DNA from: Haloplanus salinarum
GTDB lineage: Archaea; Halobacteriota; Halobacteria; Halobacteriales; Haloferacaceae
Length of the DNA: 64,000 bases
NCBI RefSeq assembly: GCF_024498175.1
Contig: NZ_CP101823.1
Coordinates: 124,001-188,000, forward strand
Direction of reading: 5' to 3'
Both the position numbers and the translations under genes were made by a program. Under the pieces are notes generated by a model, which saw nothing but the letters and a program-made list of their open reading frames with translations, did not search any database and had not been told where the DNA came from. This document shows, in pieces, positions 3,861 to 38,904 of the stretch (position 1 is its first letter; each line of letters begins with the position of its first letter).

Positions 3861-5306
3861 GTGGGCACACTCGTGAACCGATCGTCCTTCGGACGGGTCC
3901 TCGGAGTGGCCGTCCTCGTGAGCTTCGCCGTCGCGTTGCTCGGCATCTGGCTCGGCGAGTTGGGTGGTCGGCCGTGGCGATCACCGGCCGCCGTCGTCGC
4001 CGCCCCCGCCGGGCTGGTCGTCCTCCTCGCCGTCGCGGCCGGGTGGCTCCTGTGGAGCGACCTCGACGGGCGGATCGCCCTCCACGTTCCCGCCGCGGCC
4101 CTCGCCGGGACGCTCGCCTTCGGCGGGTTCGCCTGGTGGGTCGTCCTCGACACTCTCGTCACGGTCGCCGGCGTGCGATCGATGCTTGTCGTCCTGAACG
4201 TCGCCAGCGCCGGCGGCGCGGTTGGCGTCGTCGTCGGCCTGTTCACCGCGAGACAGGCGGCGTCGATCCGATCGCTCCGGCACGCCCGGGACGAGTACCG
4301 CGACCTCTTCGACGGTATCGGCGATACGGTGCTCGTCCACGACACCCGGGGACGGATCCTCGCCGCCAACGAGGGTGCGGTCGACCGGCTCGGCTACGAC
4401 GCCGCCGCCCTGCGTCGTCGGTCCGCCGACGACTTGGAGGGCGAGGGCGGCGCCGACGGTCGGTACGTCGCGGCCGACGACCGCATCGTCTACGAGACGG
4501 TCCACGAAACCGCCGACGGCGAGACGATTCCGGTCGAGATCAGCGCCCGACTCGTCCGGTACCACGACGCACCGGCGATCCTCGCGGTCGCCCGGGACAT
4601 CAGCGAACGCCGGGCCTCCGAGCGGGCGCTCGCACGCACCCGGGACCAGCTCCGCGCGCTCAACCGCGTCCTCCGTCACGACATCCGCAACGACATGCAG
4701 ATCGTCCTCGGCCTCGCGGAACTCCTCGAGGAACACGTCGACGAGGCCGGACAGGATTCGCTCGACACCATCGTCGCCACGGGCGAACACGTCGTCGAAC
4801 TCACGCGGAGTTCCCGGGACCTCGCCCGGACGGTGGCCGGCGAGACGGAACTCCCGCTGGAGCCGGTGTCGCTCCCCGAGACGATCCAGGCGGAACTCGA
4901 CCGGCGGCGCGAGGCGTTCGCCGACGCCACGCTGTCCGTCGAGGGCGAGATTCCGGACGTGACGGTCCGGGCGAACGACCTGCTCACCTCGGTGTTCCGG
5001 AACCTGCTGAACAACGCCGTCCAGCACAGCGACCGCGAGGAGCCGACCGTCACCGTCTCCGCCGACCTCTTGCGTGGCGACCCCCGTGTCCGCGTCCGCG
5101 TCGCCGACGACGGGCCGGGCATCCCGCCGGAACTGGACGGCGACGTCTTCGGCAAGGGGGAGAAAGGACTCGACAGCACGGGGACGGGGCTGGGACTCTA
5201 CCTCGTTCAGTCGCTCGTCGATCACTACGGCGGCGACGTGTGGGTCGAACCGAACGATCCCCGCGGCACCGTCGTTGTGGTCGAACTCCCGGTCGTCGAG
5301 GACTGA
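3861..5306 (+). CDS. Membrane PAS-domain sensor histidine kinase
   Basis: The 481-residue sensor has four predicted membrane helices in residues 8-125, then a PAS domain (about 145-260). The H-box (LRHDIRNDMQ) has its phosphoacceptor His near residue 272. A HATPase domain follows with the N box (NLLNNAVQHS), DDGPGIP and GTGLGLYLV. It would sense a membrane or cytoplasmic signal and phosphorylate a response regulator, but none is encoded nearby. The start is GTG; a second in-frame GTG four codons on is possible. The H-box and ATP-binding region closely resemble those of the kinase at 6214-7620. Confidence 0.93.
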   Translation: MGTLVNRSSFGRVLGVAVLVSFAVALLGIWLGELGGRPWRSPAAVVAAPAGLVVLLAVAAGWLLWSDLDGRIALHVPAAALAGTLAFGGFAWWVVLDTLVTVAGVRSMLVVLNVASAGGAVGVVVGLFTARQAASIRSLRHARDEYRDLFDGIGDTVLVHDTRGRILAANEGAVDRLGYDAAALRRRSADDLEGEGGADGRYVAADDRIVYETVHETADGETIPVEISARLVRYHDAPAILAVARDISERRASERALARTRDQLRALNRVLRHDIRNDMQIVLGLAELLEEHVDEAGQDSLDTIVATGEHVVELTRSSRDLARTVAGETELPLEPVSLPETIQAELDRRREAFADATLSVEGEIPDVTVRANDLLTSVFRNLLNNAVQHSDREEPTVTVSADLLRGDPRVRVRVADDGPGIPPELDGDVFGKGEKGLDSTGTGLGLYLVQSLVDHYGGDVWVEPNDPRGTVVVVELPVVED

Positions 5307-6213: not shown

Positions 6214-7620
6214 TCAGGCCGCCCGCTCGAACCGCAGGACGAAGACGGTGCCGCGGGGGTCGTTGTCCTCGATCCACACGTCGCCGCCGTACTGGTCGAC
6301 GAGCGTGTACACTAGGTAGAGTCCCAGCCCCGTCCCCTCGCTGTCGATGCCCTTCTCGCCCTTGCCGAAGACCGTCTCCTTGCGGTCGTCGGGAATCCCC
6401 GACCCGTCGTCGGCGACGCGGACGGTCACCGCGTCGTCCTCGGCGGACGCGGAGACGGTGACGGTGGGGTCGTCGCGGTCGCTGTGCTGGACGGCGTTGT
6501 TCAGCAGGTTCCGGAACACCGACCCCAGCATGTCGTTCGCGACCACCTCGACCAGCGGGACGTTCCCGCGGGTCCGGATCGTCGCCTCGGGGTAGCTCGA
6601 CTGTGCCTCCCGGATCTCCTGATCGAGCACGTACGAGAGGTGGATCGGTTCGAGCGTCGGGTCGGTCTCCGAGACGAGCGTCTCCATCAGATCCCCCATC
6701 ACGTCCGTCAGCTCGATCACGTGATCCGTCCGGCTCCGGATCGTCTCCAGTTGGGGGCGGTGGCCCCCCGTCACGACGTTGTCGAGCAGGTCGGTCATCC
6801 CCTGGACGAGCTGCATGTCGTTGCGGATGTCGTGGCGGACGATCCGGTTGAGGAGTTCGAGACGCTCGTTTTGTTCCTCCAACACCTGCCGGTACTCGCG
6901 GGCCTCGGTCACGTCCTTGATCGCGCCGTCGAGGTACGGCTCGCCGTCGACGGGGGAACACCGACAGACGGTGACCAACCCCCAGAACGACTCCCCGTCG
7001 AGCGTCCGGAGCTCGAGTTTCTCGGTGACGACGTTCGTCTCGGCGATGGTGTCGAAGAAGCGCCGCCGGTCGTCCCCGTCGGCGTAGATGTCGGCCACTG
7101 GCGTCGAGAGCAGATCCGCCTTCGAGTCGGCGTCGAACAGGTCGACCATCGTCGGGTTGGCTTCGAGGAAGGTCCCCTCGGGGTCGTCGTGGGCTCGGAA
7201 GATGCCCGTGGGGACGTGTTCGACCAACTCCTCGAACCGGCCGAGTTCGTCCTGGCGGTGCTTCCGGTCGGTCACGTCACGGGCGGTGGCGAGGACGCGG
7301 GTCCCGCCGTCACGCTCGACACGCGACGCGGAGAGTTCGGCCCAGACGGTCCCGCCGTCGCGCCGCTCCAGCGGCCACTCGACGGTCGCCGTGCCGTCCC
7401 CGGGATCGACGGCTCGCGACTCGGAACGTCGTTCGTCCGCCAGGAGGTCCTCGACGTGCCGGCCGACGAGACGCTCCCGGTCGAAGCCGGTCAGGGCCGC
7501 GAACCGAGCGTTGACGGCGCGAATCACCCCGGTCTCGGGGTCGTACACCACGACGCCGTCCGGGATGCCTTCGAGGAAGTCGCCGGCGCCGGTTTCGGTG
7601 GTCACCGTCCGTTCGTTCAC
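6214..7620 (-). CDS. Soluble sensor histidine kinase with two PAS domains
   Basis: The 468-residue protein has two PAS/PAC domains (about 15-125 and 130-250). The H-box (VRHDIRNDMQ) follows with His near residue 263, then a HATPase domain with NLLNNAVQHS, DDGSGIP and GTGLGLYLVYT. No membrane helix is visible, so it should sense an intracellular cue such as redox state or a ligand. No response regulator lies next to it. The start is GTG, supported by a TATA box about 28 nt upstream. Confidence 0.93.
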   Translation of the reverse strand: MNERTVTTETGAGDFLEGIPDGVVVYDPETGVIRAVNARFAALTGFDRERLVGRHVEDLLADERRSESRAVDPGDGTATVEWPLERRDGGTVWAELSASRVERDGGTRVLATARDVTDRKHRQDELGRFEELVEHVPTGIFRAHDDPEGTFLEANPTMVDLFDADSKADLLSTPVADIYADGDDRRRFFDTIAETNVVTEKLELRTLDGESFWGLVTVCRCSPVDGEPYLDGAIKDVTEAREYRQVLEEQNERLELLNRIVRHDIRNDMQLVQGMTDLLDNVVTGGHRPQLETIRSRTDHVIELTDVMGDLMETLVSETDPTLEPIHLSYVLDQEIREAQSSYPEATIRTRGNVPLVEVVANDMLGSVFRNLLNNAVQHSDRDDPTVTVSASAEDDAVTVRVADDGSGIPDDRKETVFGKGEKGIDSEGTGLGLYLVYTLVDQYGGDVWIEDNDPRGTVFVLRFERAA

Positions 7621-8401: not shown

Positions 8402-8487
8402 CTCATAGCGAGTATCGTAACTGTCCATAGGTTCTCGCGGGGATGATCCGGCGAGAACCTATGACGACTTCCGATGATCGCTATCAG
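8402..8487. repeat. 85-bp palindromic element E
   Basis: An 86-bp imperfect palindrome. A perfect 13-bp inner stem (8426-8438 with 8451-8463, CATAGGTTCTCGC) encloses a 12-nt loop (GGGGATGATCCG). Outer arms read CTCATAGCGAGTATCG and, on the other strand, CTGATAGCGATCATCG. The loop and outer-arm layout match elements A-D, but the stem sequence differs on both sides together. The right edge contains the TGA stop of the uracil-DNA glycosylase gene (8484-8486). Confidence 0.75.
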
Positions 8488-9074
8488 TAGTCGCCGAGCC
8501 GCGCCTGGTCGCCGCTCCCGGCGCCCACGAGGTCGGCCGCCCGCGCGATGGCGTCCTCGAACGCCCCGCGCTGGCTCCGATCGTACAGCGTCGCCGCCGG
8601 GTGCAGGCAGAGCAACACGCGCCGGGGAGTTCCGCCGAGGCGGACGTCGACGACCGATCCCGCCTCCTCCGTCACCGCCACCGACCGGTCCAGCAGGCGC
8701 TCGCCGGGCACCTTCCCGAGCGTGACGATCAGGTCCGGATCGACCGCCTCGACCTCCCGCCCCAGGAACCCCGCGCAGTTGTCGAGTTCGTCGACGTGTG
8801 GATCCCGGTTCTCGGGCGGCCGACACCGCACACAGTTGGTGATGCGCACGTCCGCCCGCGCCAGCCCGGCGTCCCGGAGAGCGTCGTCCAGCACCGATCC
8901 CGAGCGCCCCACGAACGGCTCCCCCCGCTCGTCCTCGTCGGCGCCCGGCGCCTCGCCGACGAACAGCAGGCCGGCGTCGGCCGGCCCCGTTCCGTTGACG
9001 ATGCGACTCCGCGACTCGACGAGCGCCGGACACCGCTCACAGGCACACACGTCCGGCCCCTCCGTCTCGACCAT
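8484..9074 (-). CDS. Family 4 uracil-DNA glycosylase
   Basis: Removes uracil from DNA, starting base excision repair. The 196-residue protein has the family 4 signature GEAPGADED followed by FVGRSG, and a C-terminal LHPAATLYD motif. Cysteines at residues 10-15 (CACERC) and in NCVRCRPPEN and NCAGF could ligate the 4Fe-4S cluster typical of the family. Its stop codon sits inside palindrome E. A small gap separates it from the DUF99 gene on the same strand. Confidence 0.93.
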   Translation of the reverse strand: MVETEGPDVCACERCPALVESRSRIVNGTGPADAGLLFVGEAPGADEDERGEPFVGRSGSVLDDALRDAGLARADVRITNCVRCRPPENRDPHVDELDNCAGFLGREVEAVDPDLIVTLGKVPGERLLDRSVAVTEEAGSVVDVRLGGTPRRVLLCLHPAATLYDRSQRGAFEDAIARAADLVGAGSGDQARLGDY

Positions 9075-15917: not shown

Positions 15918-15990
15918 GTCCGGGTTGGGGTAGTGGTTATCCTTCAGCCTTGTGGAGGCTGAGACGCGGGTTCGATTCTCGCACCCGGAC
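15918..15990 (+). tRNA. tRNA-His (GTG anticodon)
   Basis: A cloverleaf fits: acceptor TCCGGGT (15919-15925) with ACCCGGA (15983-15989), anticodon arm CAGCC-TTGTGGA-GGCTG with anticodon GTG, and T arm GCGGG-TTCGATT-CTCGC. G15918 is the extra G(-1) pairing with C73 at 15990, the tRNA-His identity pair. CCA is not encoded. No intron is seen. Three partial copies of its 3' end follow. Confidence 0.95.
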
Positions 15991-16105
15991 TTTCTGTCTG
16001 CGAACGAACGTGAGCAGACGAACGTCCATCGTAAGAGAATCGAATCAGGGAACGGAGCGAGCGAACGCGAGCGGAGTGACCGTGGTTCGATTCTCGCACC
16101 CGGAC
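15991..16105 (+). repeat. tRNA-His 3'-end repeat unit 1 (115 bp)
   Basis: Starts TTTCTGTCTGCG right after the tRNA and ends with the same 22-nt T-arm/acceptor sequence as the tRNA (16084-16105). It also contains an inverted copy of the T-arm (GAGAATCGAA, about 16036-16045), so the unit can fold into a hairpin. It is nearly identical to unit 3, with one difference seen. Confidence 0.85.
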
Positions 16106-16199
16106 TTTCCGCGGAACGCAGTGACGAAGTAAGCCGGAAGGCGAGCACTCGGGGAGTGAAGCGAGCGGAACGACCGTGGTTCGATTCTCGCACCCGGAC
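16106..16199 (+). repeat. tRNA-His 3'-end repeat unit 2 (94 bp)
   Basis: A shorter, different spacer (TTTCCGCGGAACGC onward) followed by the same 22-nt tRNA 3' end at 16178-16199. It shares the GAAGCGAGCGGAACGACCGT-type lead-in, but not the inverted T-arm copy. Confidence 0.8.
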
Positions 16200-16314
16200 T
16201 TTCTGTCTGCGAACGAACGTGAGCAGACGAACGTCCGTCGTAAGAGAATCGAATCAGGGAACGGAGCGAGCGAACGCGAGCGGAGTGACCGTGGTTCGAT
16301 TCTCGCACCCGGAC
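16200..16314 (+). repeat. tRNA-His 3'-end repeat unit 3 (115 bp)
   Basis: A near-exact copy of unit 1, ending with the 22-nt tRNA 3' sequence at 16293-16314. The sequence after it (CTTCTCGCGACG) no longer matches the repeats, so the array ends here. Confidence 0.85.
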
Positions 16315-16515
16315 CTTCTCGCGACGAACGTGGGGAGCGGACGGTCACCCGAGACCCGAATCGTCCGCCAGTTTGCCCCGTGAACGAACCCGCACAGCGG
16401 CGGCGCCCGTCCGCCTTCGACGCACACACTAGTCGACTGGCCAACATCTTTATCCGCCGACAGTCGTATCGGTCGGGAGGCGTGGTACCACACGCCACGA
16501 TCGACGAAAACACCC
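16315..16515. other. Non-coding stretch between the tRNA repeat array and the exported-protein gene
   Basis: With the repeat array this makes about 525 bp without a gene. No ORF is supported. A TATA-like CATCTTTATCC lies at about 16445-16455. A short hairpin GGCGTG-GTACCA-CACGCC at 16479-16496 sits near the predicted transcription start of the gene at 16516, where it could be an operator or leader hairpin. Confidence 0.5.
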
Positions 16516-17508
16516 ATGTCAGAACACGATCCATCACCGATCCGACGACGCGTGACGCGGCGGGGTCTGCTCCGATCGGCGGTCGCCGGGGGTGTCGCGA
16601 CCGGCGGTCTCGCGACGTCGGTCACGGCACAGGGGAACGGGAACGGCGACGGTACTTCGAAGGGCTTCCCGCCGGACGGGATCACCGAGTACGGCGACGC
16701 GGTCGACCTCGGCGAGGGACGGGTGCGGCCGTTCACGACCGAGACGCCGTCGGGAGAGCCGAAGTACCACGGCGTGGAGTTCGATCGGTCGGCACTGGAG
16801 GGACTGCCGAGCGCGGCGGAACTGGACGAAGACGAGGGGACCTACGACGACAAGTACGGGCCGAACGGCGAGGCACTGGAGGTCCATCGGAAGCAGTCGC
16901 TGGAGTTTTTCGTCCCCTTCCCGGACGCGGCGGAGACGCCGTTTACCTTCCTCGGGCTCAACTGGAACCCGGACGGCCACCCGGGCGGCAAGGGGGCGTG
17001 GCTGGTTCCACACTTCGACGTCCACTTCCACATGCTCGATACGGGAACGGTCGACGCCATCGAGGGGCCAGCCCTCCCGCCGTACGACGACCCCGAGGCG
17101 ACGGGGGAGATTCCGGCCGAGCGGATCCCCGATGGCTACGTCCGTTCGCCGGAGCCGGTCGCCGACGAACGCTACATCACGGACATGGGCGAACACACGG
17201 CCCCGAGGGACGCGCCGGAACTCCCGGACGGCCCCGACGACGACGGGAACCCGGACCGGTTCACGGCCACGCTGATCCAGGGGTTCGTCGGCGTCGGCGC
17301 GAGCGACGCCGACCCGCGGCTGGCGTTCGTCGAACCGATGCTCACCCGCGAGTACCTGCGTGACCTCGACGGCACCGACGTGTTCGACGTGCCACAGCCG
17401 GAGGTCTACCCCCACGACGAGCGCCACCCGCGGACGTACGCCATCCGCGACGTCCCCTCGGCGGAGACGGTCTGTGTCGTGCTCCAGGAGTTCGAGCCCG
17501 TCGACTGA
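16516..17508 (+). CDS. Tat-exported protein of unknown function
   Basis: A 330-residue protein with a twin-arginine signal (VTRRGLLRSAVAGG, residues 14-27, cleavage near ATSVTA). The mature part has WLVPHFDVHFHMLD near residue 165, a His-rich motif that could bind metal. It resembles a family of periplasmic proteins I recall as DUF5602/TTHB210-like, but this is uncertain. Its TGA stop lies in the left edge of palindrome A. It is the first gene after the tRNA-His repeat array. Confidence 0.82.
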   Translation: MSEHDPSPIRRRVTRRGLLRSAVAGGVATGGLATSVTAQGNGNGDGTSKGFPPDGITEYGDAVDLGEGRVRPFTTETPSGEPKYHGVEFDRSALEGLPSAAELDEDEGTYDDKYGPNGEALEVHRKQSLEFFVPFPDAAETPFTFLGLNWNPDGHPGGKGAWLVPHFDVHFHMLDTGTVDAIEGPALPPYDDPEATGEIPAERIPDGYVRSPEPVADERYITDMGEHTAPRDAPELPDGPDDDGNPDRFTATLIQGFVGVGASDADPRLAFVEPMLTREYLRDLDGTDVFDVPQPEVYPHDERHPRTYAIRDVPSAETVCVVLQEFEPVD

Positions 17509-17588
17509 TTCGGATTCGTGTGACCGTTCACCGGTGGTTCGCCAGGACAGTCCGGCGACCCACCGGTACCGACTCGATCAACCGTATG
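17505..17588. repeat. 85-bp palindromic element A
   Basis: Left edge CTGATTCGG contains the TGA stop of the exported-protein gene. The inner stem is 17530-17543 with 17554-17567 (ACCGGTGGTTCGCC, one mismatch) around a loop with ACAGTCC. The right edge ends ACCGTATG. It is the most diverged of the A-D type copies in its outer arms. Confidence 0.75.
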
Positions 17589-17652
17589 CGGGGACAGCGC
17601 CGAGACACGACACCACGATTTTTGACCCCGGGCGGTGGATGGGGCGATACGC

Positions 17653-20882: not shown

Positions 20883-21260
20883 ATGAGTGAAGGGTCGACG
20901 ACGCCGGTGCTCAAGCGAAGCGACGAGATCACGTACGAACCCGTCGACGCCGCCGACGGCCTCTCGAAGGGCGTCCTGCTCGACGAGGCGGACGGTGCGC
21001 CGAACTTCGCGATCCGTCGGTTCACCCTCGATCCCGGCGCCGAGGTGCCGAAACACACCAACGCGGTCGAACACGAACAGTACGTCCTCTCGGGGGAGTA
21101 CGTGGTCGGAATCGACGGCGAGGAACACGTCGTCTCGGCGGGCGATACCCTCCTGATCCCCGCCGGCGTCCCCCACTGGTACCGCAACGAGAGCAACGAG
21201 ACCGGCGCGTTCGTCTGTGCCGTCCCCAACGGCGACGACACCATCGAACTCGTCGACTGA
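20883..21260 (+). CDS. Cupin-domain protein
   Basis: A 125-residue single-cupin protein. The motifs HTNAVEHEQYVLSGEY and IPAGVPHWYRNES give a likely metal site with three His and one Glu. Such small cupins serve varied roles (isomerases, dioxygenases, metal sensors), so no substrate is assigned. Its TGA stop (21258-21260) lies in the left edge of palindrome B, which separates it from the helicase. Confidence 0.9.
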   Translation: MSEGSTTPVLKRSDEITYEPVDAADGLSKGVLLDEADGAPNFAIRRFTLDPGAEVPKHTNAVEHEQYVLSGEYVVGIDGEEHVVSAGDTLLIPAGVPHWYRNESNETGAFVCAVPNGDDTIELVD

Positions 21261-21343
21261 TACGGAGTACCGTAACTGTTCACCGGTGGTTCGCGGGGAC
21301 AGTCCGGCGAACCACCGGTACTGACTTACAATAACCAGTATGG
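21257..21343. repeat. 85-bp palindromic element B
   Basis: Begins CTGATACGG, carrying the cupin stop codon, and ends CAGTATGG, carrying the helicase start codon, so it fills the whole intergenic gap. The perfect inner stem is 21282-21294 with 21307-21319 (ACCGGTGGTTCGC) around GGGGACAGTCCG. The outer arms GTACCGTAACTG and, inverted, GTTATTGTAAGTC also pair with mismatches. Confidence 0.85.
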
Positions 21344-23469
21344 GGCACGCGGGCCGCCGCGAACGGGACACGTGTGGAGTCGAACGGCTGAAATACCCGG
21401 TCCACGTAGCCGGATTCGTGTCACGGCAGGTCGGACGCGTCGAGACGCTCTTCCTCCACGGTCGCGACGGCGACTTCCTGGTCGCCGTCACGCGCGACGG
21501 TGAACGTGTGTTTCGGGCGGTCCTCGAACTGAAGGAGACGGACGCCGGTCCGCGCCCGGGTCGCTTCCGGCTCAAACGCGGATCGACCGAGGAGCCACGC
21601 GACCCGAGCCAGTTCGTCGAACTCGCGCGCCGCGCCGAGCGCATCCGCATCTCCCAGCAGACGTCGCCCGCGGACCGCGAGCGTCTGGAGGCGATGCTCG
21701 ACGGCTACCAACTGGACGCCCTGACGGTCCGAACCTGCCGATACTGTGCCTCGGCCGGGCGTTACTCGCCGATCACGGAGGACACCGCGATCAAGGCCGA
21801 CCGGGATTACATCTGCCCGGACTGTGCGAAGCAGGAGCTCGACGGCGAACTCGCCTACGCCGGCGGCCTGACCGGCGCCGCACAGGACCGACTCGAGGAC
21901 CTCCTGTTGGAGGTACAGGACCTCGACCGCATCACCGACCTCCTGCAGGGCGAACTCGATCCCGACCTCACGAAGTTCGACGAGATCGGGGCCACGGTCG
22001 AGGACGTCGACCCCGTCGCCACCGCCGACCTCGACCTCCACCCGAAGCTGAAATCCCAGGTGACGGACCGGTTCGAGACGCTCCTCCCGGTCCAGAGCCT
22101 CTCGGTACGCAACGGCCTGCTCGACGGCGACGACCAGCTCGTCGTGAGCGCGACGGCGACGGGCAAGACGCTCGTGGGCGAACTCGCCGGCGTCGACCGC
22201 GCGCTGAAGGGGAAGGGGAAGCTCCTCTTTCTGGTCCCCCTGGTCGCCCTCGCCAACCAGAAAGAGGAGAACTTCGAGGAGCGGTACGGCGACCTCGTCG
22301 ACGTGACGATCCGGGTCGGCGGGAGCCGCGTCACCGACGACGGCACCCGCTTCGACCCCTCGGCGGACGTGGTCGTCGGCACCTACGAGGGGATCGACCA
22401 CGCGCTCCGGACCGGGAAGGACCTCGGCGACGTCGGTACGGTCGTCATCGACGAGGTCCACACCCTGAAGGAGGGCGAACGCGGCCACCGCCTCGACGGG
22501 ATGATCTCCCGGCTCAAACACTACTGCGAGGACCGGGCGTCGACCGGCGGCGACTACGCGGGCGCCCAGTGGATCTACCTCTCGGCGACGGTCGGCAACC
22601 CCGAGTGGCTCGCCGAGCGCCTCCGGGCCCGCCTCATCGAGTTCGAGGAGCGGCCGGTCCCCATCGAGCGACACCTCACCTTCGCGGACGCTCAGGAGAA
22701 GGTGCGGATCGAGAACCGGCTGGTGCGCCGGGCGTTCGACAGCAAGTCCTCGAAGGGGTATCGGGGACAGACCATCATCTTCACCAACTCCCGGCGGCGC
22801 TGTCACGAGATATCCCGGAAGCTGGAGTACGACTCGGCGCCGTACCACGCCGGCCTCGACTACGGGCAGCGCAAGCGCGTCGAGCGCCAGTTCGGGAACC
22901 AGGACCTCGCGGCCGTCGTCACGACGGCGGCGCTGGCCGCCGGCGTCGACTTCCCCGCCTCACAGGTCGTCTTCGACACCCTCGCGATGGGTATCGAGTG
23001 GCTCTCGGTCCAGGAGTTCGAGCAGATGCTCGGGCGGGCCGGCCGCCCCGACTACCACGACCAGGGCGTCGTCTACCTCCTGGTCGAGCCCGACTGCGCC
23101 TACCACAACAGCATGGAGATGACCGAAGACGAGGTGGCGTTCAAGCTGTTGAAAGGGGAGATGGAGGACGTCCGCACCGTCTACGACCTCTCGGCGGCCG
23201 CCGAGGAGACGCTGGCGAACATCGCCGTCGCGGGCAAGGGCGCAAAACGCCTCAACGACCGGATGCTCGGCGACGTGCCGACGACCCAGGCGGTCGGCAA
23301 ACTGCTCGAGTGGGACTTCATCGACGGGCTGACGCCGACGCCCCTGGGGCGGGCGGTGACCCGCCACTTCCTCGCGCCCGACGACGCCTTCGCCATCCTC
23401 GACCGCATCCGCAAGGGGATGGATCCCCACGAAATCGTCGCCGAACTGGAACTCCGCGACGAGGACTAG
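21340..23469 (+). CDS. Ski2-like DEAD/DEAH-box helicase with zinc ribbon
   Basis: A 709-residue ATP-dependent helicase. The N-terminal region has a Cys pair set (CRYCASAGRY and ICPDCAKQE, about 130-167). Then come motif I ATATGKT (near 270), DEVH in VVIDEVHT, SAT in YLSATVGN, and motif VI QMLGRAGRP. It is a Hel308/Ski2-type enzyme seen widely in haloarchaea, of unknown in vivo target. Its ATG is inside palindrome B; no other good in-frame start lies nearby, and the first 15 or so residues look unlike the conserved part. Confidence 0.92.
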   Translation: MGHAGRRERDTCGVERLKYPVHVAGFVSRQVGRVETLFLHGRDGDFLVAVTRDGERVFRAVLELKETDAGPRPGRFRLKRGSTEEPRDPSQFVELARRAERIRISQQTSPADRERLEAMLDGYQLDALTVRTCRYCASAGRYSPITEDTAIKADRDYICPDCAKQELDGELAYAGGLTGAAQDRLEDLLLEVQDLDRITDLLQGELDPDLTKFDEIGATVEDVDPVATADLDLHPKLKSQVTDRFETLLPVQSLSVRNGLLDGDDQLVVSATATGKTLVGELAGVDRALKGKGKLLFLVPLVALANQKEENFEERYGDLVDVTIRVGGSRVTDDGTRFDPSADVVVGTYEGIDHALRTGKDLGDVGTVVIDEVHTLKEGERGHRLDGMISRLKHYCEDRASTGGDYAGAQWIYLSATVGNPEWLAERLRARLIEFEERPVPIERHLTFADAQEKVRIENRLVRRAFDSKSSKGYRGQTIIFTNSRRRCHEISRKLEYDSAPYHAGLDYGQRKRVERQFGNQDLAAVVTTAALAAGVDFPASQVVFDTLAMGIEWLSVQEFEQMLGRAGRPDYHDQGVVYLLVEPDCAYHNSMEMTEDEVAFKLLKGEMEDVRTVYDLSAAAEETLANIAVAGKGAKRLNDRMLGDVPTTQAVGKLLEWDFIDGLTPTPLGRAVTRHFLAPDDAFAILDRIRKGMDPHEIVAELELRDED

Positions 23470-24580: not shown

Positions 24581-25006
24581 ATGGGATTGGCCGAAATAGA
24601 CTCCGGAATCGTATTCGGGTCGATTACGATGGTTACCTGGGGGATTTGGACGGTTTTGGGAAACGCCGCGTCGGAGTCCATCGATCCGCGGACCGCCGCC
24701 GCGATCTCGTATCTCGTCGCGGGTCTGCTCGCACTCGGATTCCTCGTCGTTTCGGATGCATCGCTCGCCGTGACGGCGAGAGGGGGGCTGCTTGCCGGTG
24801 TGGCCGGGTTGTTCACCGGAGCCGGCCTCATCTCGATGTACATCGGATTCTCCCAGGGGTCGGCGACGATGGTCGCCACGCTCGGTGCCATGTATTTCGT
24901 CGTCGCGGCCATCATCAGTATGACCGTTCTCGGGGACGAGGTTACGATCACGAAATGTATCGGAATCGCGTTCGCAGGTCTCAGTATCGTCCTGATCACC
25001 CGGTAG
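24581..25006 (+). CDS. Small EamA-like (DMT superfamily) membrane protein
   Basis: A 141-residue protein with about five membrane helices, covering only one EamA repeat instead of the usual two. Its C-terminal LGDEVTITKCIGIAFAGLSI is typical of EamA. Such half-size proteins can work as dimers. Base composition is clearly more AT-rich than the neighbours, and codons such as ATT and TTT are used more, which suggests transfer. A TATA-like TTCAAATACC about 28 nt upstream supports this start. Palindrome C follows 13 nt after the stop. Confidence 0.85.
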   Translation: MGLAEIDSGIVFGSITMVTWGIWTVLGNAASESIDPRTAAAISYLVAGLLALGFLVVSDASLAVTARGGLLAGVAGLFTGAGLISMYIGFSQGSATMVATLGAMYFVVAAIISMTVLGDEVTITKCIGIAFAGLSIVLITR

Positions 25007-25019
25007 GGGTACCGGTGCA

Positions 25020-25106
25020 CTGATACGGATTATTGTAACTGGTTGCCAGTGGTTCGCCGAGACGGTCCGGCGAACCACCGGTACTGACTTACAATAAACA
25101 GTATGA
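25020..25106. repeat. 85-bp palindromic element C
   Basis: Same layout as B: CTGATACGG at the left edge, inner stem 25046-25058 with 25069-25081 (one A-C mismatch), loop with GACGGTCC, and right edge ACAATAAACAGTATGAGG. Unlike the others, its edge TGA is not used as a stop; it starts 13 nt after the EamA-like stop. Confidence 0.82.
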
Positions 25107-25172
25107 GGCGTACTCGACGACGGTGAGACGGATCACGGCGGTGCCCAGCCGACGGGTTCGGCCGGCGGGGCC

Positions 25173-37605: not shown

Positions 37606-38706
37606 ATGGAGATCACCGACGTGCGGGTCGAACGGATCGAGGTACCGCTGGAGCGACCGCTCGGCGTCTCACGTGGGCGTTCGATGTCGGCCCGCGGGGC
37701 GGCCTTCGTCGTCGTCGAGACGGACGCGGGCATCACGGGGATCGGCGAGGGCGTGGGACCGGAGTCGTACATCGTCGAGCGCATCGTCGAGGAGAAGTAC
37801 GCCCCGCGGCTGATCGGCGAGGACCCCCTCGATATCCAGCGGCTCTGGGAGTCGATGGTGACCGACACCGTGTACAAGGACCTGAAGGGGCAGGGACTGT
37901 CCGCGGCCAGCGGTGTCGACATCGCGCTCTGGGACATCGCGGGCAAGCACCACGGCGTGCCCGTCTACCGCCTGCTCGGTGGTCCCGTCGGCGGCGACCT
38001 CAAACCGTACGCGAGCGACCTGTTCTGGCAGGACCCCGAGACGATGGCCGAGCGGGCGGGCTCGTACGTCGACCGCGGGTTCGCGGGCGTCAAGACCCAC
38101 CTCGGACGGGGGATCGACGCCGACGAGGAGCGGGTGGCGGCGATGCGGGACGCCATCGGCGACGCCGAACTGATGGTGGACATGAACTGCGGGTACGACC
38201 GCCCGGACGCCCGGCGCGTCGGGCGGATGCTCGAAGACTACGACGTCTACTGGTACGAGGAGCCGCTCTCGCCGTACGACGTGGACGGGCTCGCGGCCCT
38301 GCAGGAGGAACTCGCCGTCCCGCTGGCCGCCGGCGAGAACGAGTACACGAAGTGGGGCTTCCGTGACCTGTTCGAGGCGGACGCAGTCGACTACGCGATG
38401 CCCGACGTGATGCGTTGTGGCGGCATCACCGAGGCGACGAAGGTCTGTGCGCTCGCGGAGGCCCACGGGACGGTCGTCTCCCCCCACTGTTTCACCACCG
38501 GCGTCGGCCTCGCGGCGACGATGCACGTCGTCGCGGCGTCGCCGGCCTGCGAGTGGCTGGAGTTCGACCCGACCGACTTCCCCGTGTACGAGGCGCTGTT
38601 CGAGACGCCGCCCGAGCTGGAGGACGGCCGCATCGCCCTCCCCGAGGAGCCCGGACTCGGCGTCTCGCTCGACGAGGACGTGATCGGCGAGTTCCGCGTC
38701 GACTGA
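37606..38706 (+). CDS. Enolase-superfamily enzyme (mandelate racemase/muconate lactonizing type)
   Basis: A 366-residue protein with an N-terminal capping domain and a C-terminal barrel. Catalytic motifs visible are KTH (GVKTHLG, near 165), metal ligands in VDMNCGY, YEEPL and AAGENEY, and a His in SPHCF. The superfamily covers sugar-acid dehydratases and racemases; the K-x-H arrangement suggests a dehydratase, but the substrate is not known. Its TGA stop is in the left edge of palindrome D. Confidence 0.9.
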   Translation: MEITDVRVERIEVPLERPLGVSRGRSMSARGAAFVVVETDAGITGIGEGVGPESYIVERIVEEKYAPRLIGEDPLDIQRLWESMVTDTVYKDLKGQGLSAASGVDIALWDIAGKHHGVPVYRLLGGPVGGDLKPYASDLFWQDPETMAERAGSYVDRGFAGVKTHLGRGIDADEERVAAMRDAIGDAELMVDMNCGYDRPDARRVGRMLEDYDVYWYEEPLSPYDVDGLAALQEELAVPLAAGENEYTKWGFRDLFEADAVDYAMPDVMRCGGITEATKVCALAEAHGTVVSPHCFTTGVGLAATMHVVAASPACEWLEFDPTDFPVYEALFETPPELEDGRIALPEEPGLGVSLDEDVIGEFRVD

Positions 38707-38787
38707 TACTGTTTATCGTAAGTCATTACCGGTGGTTCGCCAGAACAGTTCGGCGAACCACCGGTACACAGTTACAATAACCGTATG
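38703..38787. repeat. 85-bp palindromic element D
   Basis: Starts CTGATACTG, with the TGA stop of the enolase-family gene. It has a perfect 14-bp inner stem, 38728-38741 with 38752-38765 (ACCGGTGGTTCGCC), around a 10-nt loop (AGAACAGTTC). It ends ACAATAACCGTATGAGC. The ATG in its right edge opens a frame into aspS, but the true aspS start is at 38905. Confidence 0.85.
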
Positions 38788-38904
38788 AGCGGGCGTGGCC
38801 GCGAGCGGCCGTCGCCGCCCCGGTCGACGGGACGGCCGTACGATGCCCCGGACGAGCGACCGAAAACGGCCGCGTTTAAGGTACGGGGACCGATACGGGT
38901 GGGT

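Follow-up and report, generated by a model that had tools for sequence, protein, structure and literature searches.

Palindromic elements in the window

The window, as the term is used here, is the whole 64-kb stretch analysed, corresponding to positions 124001-188000 of the 3.45-Mb single-contig haloarchaeal genome G000. A covariance model found exactly five loci of a near-palindromic element in it (E values from 2.5e-9 to 1.8e-19), and these are the five copies, A to E, that had been named in the preliminary description. The copies and the genes whose ends they occupy are the following:

8402-8487, minus strand: element E, with TCA duplications at 8403-8405 and 8484-8486 and a 78-bp body at 8406-8483; its right duplication is the TGA stop of the minus-strand gene 8484-9074
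8484-9074, minus strand: gene whose stop is the target of element E
17505-17590, plus strand: element A; TGA at 17506-17508 is the stop of gene 16552-17508
17509-17586: body of element A, 78 bp and decayed; its right duplication, 17587-17589, is a mutated TGC
20883-21260, plus strand: gene whose stop is the target of element B
21257-21344, plus strand: element B; a target C followed by TGA at 21258-21260, the stop of gene 20883-21260
21261-21340: body of element B, 80 bp; its right duplication, 21341-21343, is TGG, one mutation away from TGA
25020-25107, plus strand: element C, with TGA duplications at 25021-25023 and 25104-25106 and the body at 25024-25103; intergenic, 15 bp downstream of the TAG stop of gene 24656-25006
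38703-38789, plus strand: element D, with the body in the opposite orientation; TGA at 38704-38706 is the stop of gene 37606-38706
38707-38785: body of element D, 79 bp; its right duplication, 38786-38788, is TGA

As first described, the TGA at the edge of A, B, D and E is the in-frame stop codon of the adjacent gene; C, as that description implied, is not at such a stop but past a TAG. In DNA folding, elements B, C, D and E were 5.5-6 standard deviations better than dinucleotide shuffles, and A was 2.7 standard deviations better. Element E represents a divergent subfamily with compensatory changes in its stem.

The body of the element is a non-coding near-palindrome of 80 bp with the form TA[C/G]...[G/C]TA. 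This exact length is found in 52 of the 73 scorable copies in G000, and A, D and E are those of 78-79 bp in the window. Each arm has about 35 bp and is made of two 15-bp stems, outer and inner, separated by 4 mismatched nucleotides that are not the same in the two arms; a 10-nt tip lies between the arms. There is a slight asymmetry between the two arms (X and Y). The body has terminal inverted repeats and contains no open reading frame, as is usual in miniature inverted-repeat transposable elements (MITEs).

Other features of the window were also observed. Two direct copies of a 141-bp sequence (15969-16109 and 16178-16318, 99% identical and 209 bp from start to start) precede the gene with element A at its end, and positions 4659-5278 and 6239-6852 share a long inverted similarity of 80-91%, corresponding to paralogous genes that face each other on opposite strands. 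At the right edge of elements B and D (window 21340 and 38785), which reads GTATGAG, an ATG within the element starts the open reading frame of the downstream gene. Conservation with relatives begins farther downstream than these ATG codons, and as judged from sequence comparison such gene starts are probably misannotations.

A mobile element that duplicates its target

The insertion target is the 5-bp palindrome C-TSA-G, the central TSA of which (TGA or TCA) is duplicated. Among the 73 scorable copies in G000 the middle base of the two flanking triplets was concordant in every case (either G in both or C in both), and the whole triplets were identical in 61 and differed by one base in the remaining 12. 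When the copies were aligned the borders were sharp, and the outer CT[G/C]A and [G/C]AG appeared conserved. In two independent carrier genomes the triplets were identical in 21/25 and 20/22 copies, with bodies nearly all of 80 bp, and they also match in other families of the order, including one member (L066) with ACT on both sides. The element has spread recently and in random orientation: of eight copies whose bodies are identical, six point one way and two the other relative to TGA, and the overall ratio of orientations at stops is 27:36 (p = 0.31). Identical bodies in both orientations together with concordant triplets indicate a target duplication and not a fixed edge of the element. Since the body is flanked by this duplication, the TGA at the edge is target DNA. 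Thus, the CTGATA-type edge of the preliminary description was correctly placed, but its TGA does not belong to the element, and the unit of 85-88 bp consists of an 80-bp body with the 3-bp target duplication on either side.

Comparison of occupied and empty orthologous sites, which had been recommended earlier, gave one clean pair. The site is the ortholog of 2584965, where G006 is occupied and reads GAT-TGA-[80-bp body]-TGA-CTCGG, whereas G001 and G003, with near-identical flanks, are empty and read GAT-TGA-CTCGG. The difference is exactly 83 bp, that is, 80 bp plus TGA, and it is the gene's stop codon that has been duplicated. The ortholog of site B in G010 is also empty, with C-TGA-G at the stop. 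Duplication of TA, as in IS630, was rejected, as empty sites read C-TGA-G or GAT-TGA-C and lack TATA. The duplication has the fixed length expected of a MITE, in this case 3 bp, and it argues against a folded site similar to an integron attC. In Halobacterium transposons the commonest duplications are of 5, 8 and 10 bp (PMC3119063), so a 3-bp duplication is unusual for the group. The palindrome is therefore a non-coding mobile element, MITE-like in its behaviour.

Distribution of the family

Searches with element B (BLAST), with covariance model R1 and with a pattern found at least 86 copies in G000, so that the family extends well beyond the window. A further model, R2, had matches in 144 of 293 near-complete genomes of the order, distributed over 44 of 78 genera, and none outside the order in a phylum sample of 247 genomes; in our searches the family was found solely in halophilic archaea. 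Named carriers include Natrinema, Natrialba, Halomontanus, Haloterrigena, Natronorubrum, Natribaculum, Haloplanus and Halobellus. In four published Natrialbaceae plasmids (Natrialba magadii, Halomontanus, Natrinema and Haloterrigena) an annotated coding sequence ends at the edge of the element. None of the six annotated plasmid copies checked is annotated as a repeat; four overlap the end of an annotated coding sequence and the other two are intergenic. A search of haloviruses gave no match to the family, nor did a scan of IMG/VR with one genus-specific pattern. A low-GC island of G000 has two members with different stems, 112 bp from each other, at 1204933-1205215 (L083).

Search for a parent element and a mobilising enzyme

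With at least 86 copies and a body devoid of coding capacity, this MITE-like element must be moved in trans, as had been anticipated. It is a real possibility that it is an ordinary MITE, a deletion derivative of a haloarchaeal insertion sequence with the same terminal inverted repeats that was missed by our searches, and the inverted repeats, the target duplication, the high copy number and the lack of an open reading frame all agree with such an origin. However, no autonomous parent sharing these ends was found in the genomes and families covered by a non-exhaustive search. Facing arms separated by 0.7-3 kb were absent from the pattern hits listed for G145, G288 and G000 (100 of 138 in the last genome), and the single-arm candidates in loci fetched from G202 and G132 were decayed elements with no matching arm pair.

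The transposase families examined did not provide a candidate. DDE_Tnp_1 was rejected as the mover, as the best 30 loci of this family in seven carriers have ends unrelated to the element and an eighth carrier, G040, lacks the family altogether. IS5-group insertion sequences (IS1031/ISL2) and PIF/Harbinger transposons make 3-bp duplications at palindromic targets of the TNA type; however, no such insertion sequence or transposase with matching ends was found, and DDE_Tnp_4 (PIF/Harbinger-like) was rejected too, being absent from all 16 carriers tested. The fetched flanks of 60 Y1 and DDE_Tnp_1 transposase genes contained no copy of the element.

Association with stop codons

According to a codon-usage frame test, in 67 of the 86 copies in G000 the upstream gene next to the element ends in frame with the duplicated TGA, a count obtained with a simple frame caller that works badly in islands of low GC content, where several of the young copies are located. 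Neither of the outcomes that the preliminary description had held to speak against its proposal, copies confined to this window or a genome-wide lack of association with stops, was found. When flanks were joined, C-TGA-G sites were occupied in 32/53 cases at stops versus 9/58 elsewhere between genes (p = 1.4e-6), although these sites were taken from stretches around copies, which enriches both classes for occupied ones. For 11 scorable genes the orthologous stops in other species of the genus, tallied by hand, were occupied in 8/52 cases when the codon was TGA and in 0/34 when it was TAA or TAG (p = 0.02). In the two independent carrier genomes mentioned above, which are Natrialbaceae-like, no more than 12/25 and 7/22 of the sampled copies were at stops.

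When the insertion target is a TGA stop, the stop is rebuilt by the duplication and the gene is left untouched. The excess at stops is probably a result of the target sequence and of survival on a non-disruptive site, and not of a function in termination. Taking a nearest-neighbour distance of at most 1 as a crude proxy for young age, 7/16 young copies were at stops as opposed to 49/55 older ones (p = 4e-4), and the young share did not differ from that of stops among the available non-genic C-TGA-G sites (21/68, p = 0.28). Since the young copies follow the availability of targets and nearly all the older ones lie at stops, the association would be mostly a matter of survival on a harmless target, with insertions elsewhere being lost, a view that has moderate support. 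Part of the excess may still reflect true target choice, since C-TGA-G sites at most 100 bp from a stop are also used less than those at stops (5/18 versus 32/53, p = 0.03, both counts coming from the enriched stretches mentioned above).

This last comparison is what favours active selection of gene ends by the mobilising machinery, for example via translation termination or transcription ends, together with the fact that the same stops were struck by different elements in different species: the TGA of site B has different palindromic elements in the orthologs of G000, G008 and G011, the stop at 604755 carries one subfamily in G000 and G002 and another in G003, and that at 1976210 one in G000 and G009 and another in G002. 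We nevertheless consider such selection rather unlikely, given that the youngest copies are found at stops at close to the rate of target availability and that C-TSA-G sites away from stops are also used, with the same 3-bp duplication. The earlier proposal of targeting therefore stands as regards landing at gene ends, but not as regards recognition of gene ends as such, for which a C-TSA-G target plus survival appears the likelier explanation.

Some sites have a more complex structure. In tandem insertions two elements share one TGA/TCA triplet, as in G132 (L199, 1492-1652, and L207, 1477-1639) and at site B in G008 (L077). A palindrome related to the family has TACTGNNGGCTGTAA ends and a different inner stem; it is found at TGA stops in G002 (L281) and as the second element of L077 in G008, and a 34-bp body at a TGA stop in G011 (L076) is a short deletion form.

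Pairing of the arms

When 21 diverse members were compared, double compensatory changes were seen in 26 of the 30 pairs and 90% of the cells were paired, versus 30-47% in every slid control; column pair 22/67, located between the outer and inner stems, was unpaired in 21/21 members and its type differs between the arms. Within the main G000 subfamily, in contrast, changes in pairs gave 127 broken, 63 G-T and only 41 fully compensated cells, and between subfamilies 98 double changes were counted against few one-sided G-T changes. Selection at the RNA level was rejected on these grounds. As pairs are compensated between lineages and broken in copies, it follows that the palindrome is renewed in the lineages that spread and not upheld in resident copies, which argues for a role of the pairing in movement and disfavours a role in host RNA.

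It is therefore improbable that the palindrome is a selected host signal, such as a bidirectional terminator or a stabiliser of mRNA 3' ends, despite its stable hairpin, its location at 3' ends and its compensatory changes between subfamilies. Besides the decay of stem pairs in old copies, the orientation shows no polarity, no copy is present at orthologous TAA or TAG stops, most orthologs of occupied genes lack the element, and the Rfam covariance models gave no match at E <= 1 of the kind that a known structured RNA family would give. The suggestion of a bidirectional 3'-end signal is thus not supported.

Transposition as single-stranded DNA by a Y1 (HUH) transposase, as in REP/REPIN or IS200/605-type elements, is very improbable: a short hairpin palindrome in high copy number with no linked transposase, and Y1 genes in 15 of the 16 genomes tested, would suit it, but the element makes a true 3-bp duplication and its identical bodies lie either way round. 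Moreover, Y1 genes are lacking in G057 despite at least 17 copies there, those of G132, a genome with many copies, are broken fragments only, and 30 Y1 genes had no element in their surroundings of about 1.5 kb. A version in which the TGA is part of the element is rejected by the empty site and by the two orientations of identical bodies; G057 departs from the REP/REPIN-RAYT arrangement with a Y1 enzyme in trans, and derivatives of IS200/605 (PATEs) have no target duplication and a strand-fixed orientation. Hence, of the two kinds of mobile element first suggested, MITE-like and REP-like, only the former is supported, and the suggested link to an IS200/605 or REP-associated transposase is not.

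Proposed mechanism and comparison with known elements

Taken together, the element inserts at C-TSA-G with duplication of TSA, and it is likely that it is found at stops mostly through survival and that it is moved by an unlinked enzyme. Such an enzyme would make a cut with a 3-bp stagger and join the ends of the element to it, with both arms being recognised. A DDE-type strand-transfer reaction would yield this product, from which alone the chemistry is deduced. As the arms pair, an extruded hairpin could bring both ends together, whereas a stiff duplex of 80 bp would resist it; the fixed length of 80 bp and the pairing of the arms are in keeping with a reaction on such a hairpin. More tentatively, the family could represent a class of minimal transposable palindromes, consisting of two fused recognition arms moved as a hairpin by an unlinked enzyme that carries out strand transfer at C-TSA-G with a 3-bp stagger; the family would persist throughout the order by means of harmless stops while arms and enzyme co-evolve.

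Haloarchaea are already known to have MITEs and small mobile repeats, SMR-A and SMR-B, described in Haloquadratum, the mobilisation of which is enigmatic (PMC3119063). The SMRs resemble the element in their size of about 80-110 bp, inverted terminal repeats and lack of a transposase, and the element shares with them inverted repeats unrelated to known transposons. However, SMRs are described as leaving no target duplication and as having a preference for other mobile elements (PMC3119063), in contrast to the 3-bp TSA duplication at stops seen here. In bacteria, miniature elements that duplicate their target are likewise known from gene ends, and ERIC/RU-1, RUP, Correia and YPAL are also short, base-paired, intergenic and non-autonomous; the mobility of YPAL was demonstrated by empty and filled sites (PMC2229807). 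ERIC and YPAL are longer (127 and 168 bp, respectively, versus an 80-bp body), RUP has TA targets and an IS630-type parent, and a fixed 80-bp body, a C-TSA-G target and order-wide compensatory arms are not described for any of these families in that work (PMC2229807). REPINs are also miniature hairpin-forming sequences spread by an unlinked enzyme, but they are tied to Y1 transposases (PMC3116915), as opposed to an element with a 3-bp duplication and one carrier without Y1. As far as the literature compared shows, an order-wide family of fixed length, with a C-TSA-G/TGA target that restores the stop and no recognisable parent found, is apparently new.

The family illustrates a simple route for mobile DNA in compact genomes: as TGA is duplicated, the element can insert on a stop codon and the stop is rebuilt. 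By adding ATG and TGA codons at gene borders, it can mislead the annotation of start sites. The question of targeting or survival can be tested directly, by comparing young copies with old ones. Moreover, the presence of the family in about half of the sampled genomes of the order, with no matching enzyme found, points to an undiscovered mobilisation system.
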